Source of the DNA: Halorubellus sp. JP-L1
Lineage (GTDB): Archaea; Halobacteriota; Halobacteria; Halobacteriales; Natrialbaceae
Direction: 5' to 3'
Assembly (NCBI RefSeq): GCF_011440375.1
Contig: NZ_JAAOIR010000001.1
Location: 930,001 to 994,000 of the forward strand
Length of the DNA: 64,000 nt
The notes beneath the pieces are model-generated. The model made no database searches and was not told the DNA's origin. It was given only the letters and a program-made list of their open reading frames with translations. This document shows positions 42,501-43,730 of the stretch, one piece after another; the first letter of the stretch is position 1, and each line of letters opens with the position of its first letter. The position numbers and the translations under genes were made by a program.

Positions 42501-43565
42501 CTACTCCAGTTGCTTCGGCGGGCTGTCCCGTCCGACACGGATTTCGTGGGCTTCGATGTCCTCGAACGCGGCGACCTGCCCGCCGATCGTGACGTCCTCG
42601 CCGGTGTCGTCGTCGGTGAGGGTGAGGGTCGCGACTTCCTCGGTGGTCTCGAACGCGACGTCGCTGACCTTCCCGCTGACGACTCTCGGCGTGCCGGTCT
42701 CGACGTCGCGGCCGTCGATCGTCGCGTAGAACTCGCCGCCCTCGGCGACGACGTCCTTCACGCACCGGCGGATGCTCGCGTACCGGCGCGGGTACGGGCG
42801 GTCCTCGCCGTCGGCGTACAGCTCCTCGGCGGTCGTCCAGAGCACGGTCCCGAAGAACCCGGAGACGAGGAACCCGAGCGCGGAGCGATTGAAGATGACG
42901 CCGTAGCGGTCCTGGTCGTCGCGGAGGGCGTCCTGGGTGGCGTAGATCGAGTACTCGCCGTCGGCGACGGCGATGACGGGCGTCGTGATGCCCCGGCGGG
43001 CGCGCGCGGTCGTCGCGACTTGCGCGTAGTCGTACTCCTCTGGGTCGGGTGCGCCCGCGGCGGGCGTGACGAGGAGTTCGATGCTGACGCCCTCGTGGTT
43101 CCGTTGCTTGAGGAGGTCCGAGAACCGCTCGAGGAGGTCCGGCGTCAGGGAGAGCGCGAGCTCGTAGTCCGCGGCGTCGATTACCTCCTCGAGGTAGCGC
43201 AGGATCGTCGACCGGGACTTCACGAGCGACACCGCCTCGGTGTCCCGCGCAGGTGCGGTGTAGCGCGCTTCGAGTTCGTCGATCATCTCGTCGAGCGACG
43301 ACGTGACGTCGGCGAACGCGTCGTCGGGGTCGACCGCGATGATCTTCATCGGGCGGGACTCGCGGAGTTCGACGAGCCCGCGGTCGGAAAGCGACCGCAC
43401 GGTGTCGTAGACGCGGGGCTGCGGGATCTCGGTGCGGTCGGCGATCTCGCTGGCGGTGAGCTGGCCGTGCTCGAGCACGGTGAGGTAGGCGTCGATCTCG
43501 TACTCGCCGAGGTTGAACCGGTCCCCCACTCGCTCGATGGTGTTGCGGAGGTCGTCGCTTGGCAT
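42501..43565 (-). CDS. trmB: TrmB-family sugar-responsive transcriptional regulator
   Basis: The 354-residue protein has an N-terminal winged helix (about 12-75; [38 protein letters not shown]) and a short coiled linker. The TrmB effector domain follows (about 105-345; [44 protein letters not shown]). In Halobacterium TrmB is a glucose-responsive regulator of central carbon metabolism that binds a TACT-N7/8-GAGTA site. I choose ATG 43565 since GGAGGTCA lies about 10-20 nt before it and the TATA/operator region (43597-43614) is too near the other in-frame ATG at 43589 for that to be the start. Confidence 0.9.
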
Positions 43566-43596
43566 GTCCCGCAAGATGACCTCCTGCATTAAACCA

Positions 43597-43614
43597 TTTA
43601 CTAAAATCCGAGTA
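43597..43614 (-). promoter_or_regulatory. TrmB operator overlapping the trmB TATA box
   Basis: The plus strand reads TACT (43599-43602), seven bases, then GAGTA (43610-43614), an exact match to the published haloarchaeal TrmB consensus TACT-N7/8-GAGTA. On the minus strand it overlaps TTTTAGTAAA, a plausible TATA box about 25 nt from the expected start of transcription. This suggests autorepression. Confidence 0.7.
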
Positions 43615-43730
43615 GCACCGCGTTTCGGAAGCGGGTACGTTCGAGCGGGTGATGCTTCGCTGGCGCGGAGCCGCCCGAGACGGAGCGACGCACCGATACG
43701 AGTAACACGACCGAGAACCTACGGCCGGGC

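Follow-up and report, generated by a model that had tools for sequence, protein, structure and literature searches.

The trmB promoter of Halorubellus sp. JP-L1 contains what is strongly supported, from its sequence, as an operator for TrmB, and because a TrmB operator stands in the promoter of trmB, the regulator most likely controls its own gene, a reading to which, leaving direction aside, we assign a probability of about 0.8. TrmB governs whether haloarchaea synthesise or consume sugar. The protein of Halobacterium recognises TACT-N7/8-GAGTA and loses its affinity for DNA in the presence of sugar (PMC4158304, PMC3794607), which bears out an earlier note on this DNA that had stated both the motif and a response to glucose. 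The candidate operator, TACTAAAATCCGAGTA on the plus strand and TACTCGGATTTTAGTA as read along the trmB strand, is an exact TACT-N7-GAGTA and the sole match in the window, the whole 64-kb stretch of DNA that was analysed; the chance expectation is 0.06 matches per window, and at least one match appeared in 4 of 100 dinucleotide shuffles. Its presence in the trmB promoter and its overlap with TTTTAGTAAA on the minus strand (43606-43597) had both been noticed before and are confirmed, and the span first given, 43597-43614, takes in an extra TT beside the motif itself, which runs from 43599 to 43614.

The sequence identifies the gene as a genuine haloarchaeal trmB. Its product matches NCBIfam family NF047392 over the full length with 618.8 bits (cut-off, 500) and combines an N-terminal winged HTH domain (PF01978, 75.5 bits) with a C-terminal sugar-binding domain (PF11495, Regulator_TrmB, 217.4 bits). 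The sugar-binding residues of Pyrococcus TrmB include G320 and E326 (PMC4158304), and in the alignment with 3qph the sugar-binding glycine and glutamate match (GGMFAVIED versus GGQVAAFED). The ORF in its full extent covers 42501-43589 on the minus strand, and its first ATG (43589) overlaps the TATA element; in most of the 80 named relatives, homology begins at ORF residue 9, also an ATG, which makes ATG 43565 the most likely start. An annotation that takes the longest ORF would be wrong for trmB, the relatives starting 8 codons later. The placement of the TATA and BRE elements in Table 1 assumes a leaderless trmB transcript; in Haloferax volcanii this type is the commonest, at 72 percent (PMC4983044). 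Read from this start, the operator is located upstream of the TATA element with its proximal half-site over the BRE, rather than in the interval from the TATA box to the trmB start that had been proposed.

Table 1. Features of the trmB control region (coordinates of the 64-kb window) and TrmB-type sites elsewhere in the genome (coordinates of the locus named)
Feature	Position	Strand	Remarks
trmB, haloarchaeal sugar-sensing regulator TrmB, 354 aa	42501..43565	-	NF047392, PF01978, PF11495; start placed from relatives
TATA-box-like TTTAAT	43588..43593	-	-28 to -23; TTTA columns conserved in 99 distinct promoters
BRE-like GTAAAT	43596..43601	-	-36 to -31 of the predicted leaderless start; conserved RTAAAT columns; overlapped by the proximal half-site
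TrmB operator (putative)	43599..43614	-	TACTC (-49 to -45), N7, AGTA (-37 to -34) on the trmB strand; exact consensus, best matrix score of the window
Second conserved palindrome, AC-N4-TTYSGRAA-N4-GT	43617..43636	.	here ACCGCGTTTCGGAAGCGGGT; 20 bp, 2 bp from the operator
Refined-pattern site, fba-fbp operon	L097, upstream of 763		85 bp before the aldolase gene
Refined-pattern site, ROK glucokinase-like (glk-like) gene	L251, 2472-2489		44 bp upstream
Refined-pattern site, gluconate/galactonate dehydratase-like (gad-like) gene	L252, 2526-2543		12 bp upstream
Refined-pattern site, aldehyde dehydrogenase (ALDH) gene	L253, 2442-2459		55 bp upstream

For comparison, 141 trmB promoters were assembled from the window, 80 named genomes, and 60 others chosen to cover the families. 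[TA]ACTC is found at -47 to -53 in 102 of them, and about 100, or some three quarters of the set, keep the operator in the position it has in the window; many Haloferacaceae-type promoters are among these, and the distance to trmB is fixed across families. The exact consensus is retained in only 25 of the 141, and AATA replaces AGTA as the proximal half of the operator in many Natrialbaceae-type promoters. TACTCG, A(G/A)TAAAT, and TTTA are almost invariant columns among the 99 distinct promoter sequences, and because the columns upstream of the composite element (the operator plus the second palindrome described below) drop to background, at 0.02 to 0.24 bit, this conservation does not merely reflect relatedness. 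In the proximal half-site, the T is invariant (102/102) and the A is kept in 94/102, at positions that a generic BRE would not fix. The operator is missing from the trmB promoters of Haloarcula-like genomes (f3 g26; presumed genus), of f3 g37 and f3 g42, and of several Haladaptatus-type genomes, and Halobacterium-like trmB promoters (f2 g22; presumed genus) have no good operator within 150 bp.

Several of these promoters share other elements. Those of the Haloarcula-like genomes (L191, L193-L200, L202) share GAGTGCCGAAGTTCTTAGTACTCGACTCGCAAACGCC, a different conserved block, at the trmB start; those of Haladaptatus and Halomicrococcus (L055, L059, L063, L064, L072) have neither the operator nor the second palindrome, and the Haladaptatus promoters have another block in common around GAAAAGGTGG-TACTATA.

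The operator was also recovered with a matrix from a different gene. TrmB is known to target gapII (PMC10817205), and [TA]ACTC-N6-[GT]AGT is present in 27 of 30 gapII promoters of relatives, centred at -63 to -73 of the ATG; these sites were gathered with a motif-shaped expression, and the independent part of the result is their constant position, not their sequence. A weight matrix built from the 27 gapII sites alone, with no trmB site included, places its best match for 102 of the 141 trmB promoters at -50 to -52 and ranks the trmB operator first in the 64-kb window with 18.7 bits, the next site scoring 13.1 bits. This second-best site (17374) lies inside a flippase-type gene and was taken as a chance match. 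The gapII site of the same genome, AACTCGTCGGCGAGTGA, is weaker (14.7 bits), and the ppsA promoter of this genome has no good site by this matrix, which argues that the predicted regulon differs from those already studied.

A search of the genome with the loose consensus TACT-N7/8-GAGTA, as the earlier note had advised, yielded 20 matches, mostly in coding frames, against 24 for the reversed control; the motif is not enriched in this form, which we rejected as useless for defining a regulon. The refined pattern WACTC-N6-BAGTDAA gave 5 matches versus 1 in the control, all 5 of them 12 to 85 bp upstream of the starts of trmB or carbohydrate genes; the pattern had been shaped with the trmB and fba sites, so that only the glk, gad, and ALDH matches are independent, and the enzymes are named at the family level, since no protein among them scores above an equivalog cut-off. 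Across 59 genomes of the order, the refined pattern gave 143 matches versus 84 in the control, and in 25 genomes of five families with the operator at trmB it gave 97 versus 27, counts in which matches from related genomes are not independent and small p-values overstate the case. The expectation that the motif is commoner upstream of genes than by chance thus fails for the loose consensus and holds for the refined pattern. A longer pattern, KTGCTACTC-N7-ARTA with 2 mismatches allowed, gave fewer matches than its control, with only trmB exact, and was discarded. The unenriched loose consensus and the shuffles that contain a match could be taken to mean that the operator arose by chance in an A/T-rich promoter; however, its fixed position, its conservation across families, and its rank at the top of the matrix scores in the window make such a coincidence extremely improbable.

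Nearby, the ORF of a HAD hydrolase begins divergently at GTG 43731, 117 nt away, in agreement with the distance of about 117 nt given before, and the operator might in principle also, or mainly, serve that gene. tblastn of the fetched trmB flanks, in which trmB was found as a positive control, detected a HAD relative beside trmB in 0 of 80 named relatives, most of which keep the operator, and the distance between operator and trmB is constant in all families. Because relatives lack a HAD gene next to trmB and the operator stays at a constant distance from trmB, the two genes probably do not share the site, contrary to what the earlier note had considered, and a role in HAD expression is very unlikely.

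Binding by this TrmB is predicted from the site itself, its likeness to the sites of other targets, its fixed position, and its conservation, and the glucose response is presumed by analogy with Halobacterium and Haloarcula. In the proposed mechanism, TrmB would occupy TACTC-N7-AGTA, at -49 to -34 of the leaderless promoter, when glucose is absent; with the proximal half-site on the BRE, the bound protein would most likely hinder TFB and lower trmB transcription, and glucose would release TrmB and open the promoter. The distance from the operator centre to the TATA element is 37 bp in 17 of the 20 gapII promoters scored (35 to 38 bp overall) and 15 to 16 bp in most trmB promoters, where the site is on the BRE, and in 28 of the 30 gluconate dehydratase promoters of relatives (L257-L286), the best site begins at -28 to -31, over the TATA/start region. 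Gluconate dehydratase is a sugar-catabolic gene that is expected to be repressed without glucose. The trmB operator therefore takes a position intermediate between those of gapII and gad, and the three genes offer a clean test of how operator position relates to activation and repression in archaea.

In Haloarcula hispanica, the TrmB motif generally overlaps the BRE at repressed targets (PMC10817205), which favours negative autoregulation here. However, an activator may also bind next to the BRE, as the UAS of the haloarchaeal GvpE adjoins it and this closeness is essential (PMC4390858), so that repression is no more than plausible. TrmB might accordingly act on trmB as GvpE does, recruiting TFB/TBP from beside the BRE and raising trmB expression when glucose is absent; the adjoining operator and BRE would suit this arrangement, and the operator centre is 21 to 22 bp, about two helical turns, nearer to the TATA element than at gapII, which would place TrmB on the same DNA face. 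Such positive autoregulation is nevertheless doubtful, since the proximal half-site is over the BRE rather than upstream of it, activated gapII has a different and very constant spacing of 37 bp, and a motif on the BRE goes with repression in Haloarcula (PMC10817205). That TrmB binds at trmB with no effect on its expression is unlikely. We consider it rather probable, from the geometry, that TrmB represses trmB; of the earlier proposal that TrmB represses itself, the operator in its own promoter is upheld, and repression is plausible from the geometry.

The operator is accompanied by a second conserved palindrome (Table 1). Of the 141 trmB promoters, 62 have a strict match, at a constant 22 bp ahead of TACTC wherever both elements were scored, and 91 of the 102 operator-bearing promoters have one with at most 2 mismatches; elsewhere in about 950 kb of loci, the palindrome occurs at one place, upstream of gapII in Haloparvum, and its reversed form at none. 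It is nearly exclusive to trmB promoters. The core TTYCGRAA-N4-GTGC is present in the same genome at trmB and at two places that lack the AC arm and are unlike promoters. The palindrome is centred ~36 bp upstream of the TATA element, the location that TrmB takes up at gapII, an activated target. No relevant report of a TTCGAA palindrome among haloarchaeal regulators emerged from a literature search. We also considered the palindrome as a divergent promoter (a CGAAA BRE plus GTTGT) and rejected it, as no divergent gene starts there in relatives such as Haloarchaeobius sp. FL176, whose gene upstream of trmB runs in the same direction.

The palindrome and GTGCTACTC could together form one site of another regulator, the TrmB match being a by-product of TACTC beside an A/T-rich BRE. 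In keeping with this, conservation of the palindrome and of the GTGC preceding TACTC is roughly on a par with that of TACTC, neither was seen at the gapII, fba, and gad operators, and AGTA overlaps the BRE. However, TACTC-N6-NAGTA fits the gapII, gad, and glk sites, which have no palindrome, the proximal half keeps its A and T more strictly than a BRE would require, and the palindrome needs no TACTC to be complete and symmetrical; a single site for another protein is therefore distinctly unlikely. We lean slightly towards a composite trmB control region in most haloarchaeal families, made of the BRE-overlapping TrmB operator and the palindrome, at which a second regulator, or TrmB in a second mode, would help set the level of trmB. 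The palindrome is new and the most interesting by-product of the analysis; adjoining the operator, it points to a second input on a regulator of central carbon metabolism.

TrmB of Halobacterium salinarum (VNG1451C) resembles the protein described here in its NF047392 family, its operator consensus, and its overlapping targets (gapII, fbp), and PMC10817205, citing Schmid 2009, reports its binding near its own gene; in contrast to the exact operator at -49 here, Halobacterium-like trmB promoters (presumed genus) have no good operator. TrmBHar of Haloarcula hispanica likewise recognises a partially palindromic 19-bp motif akin to that of Halobacterium and targets gapII and fbp, with the motif on the BRE at repressed targets, and it is reported not to be autoregulated in vivo (PMC10817205), with which the absence of the operator from Haloarcula-like trmB promoters agrees; the operator is present in the promoter studied here. 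Tgr/TrmBL1 of Thermococcales is another sugar-responsive member of the TrmB family that represses or activates depending on the position of its motif, and autoregulation has been proposed for Tgr (PMC4158304), but its operator, TATCAC-N5-GTGATA, is different. Genome-wide maps of TrmB binding have been reported for two haloarchaea, in one of which no autoregulation was seen; the promoter comparison suggests that the two studied genera, Haloarcula and Halobacterium, are the exception, that most other families keep a fixed trmB operator, and that autoregulation of trmB is very likely widespread.
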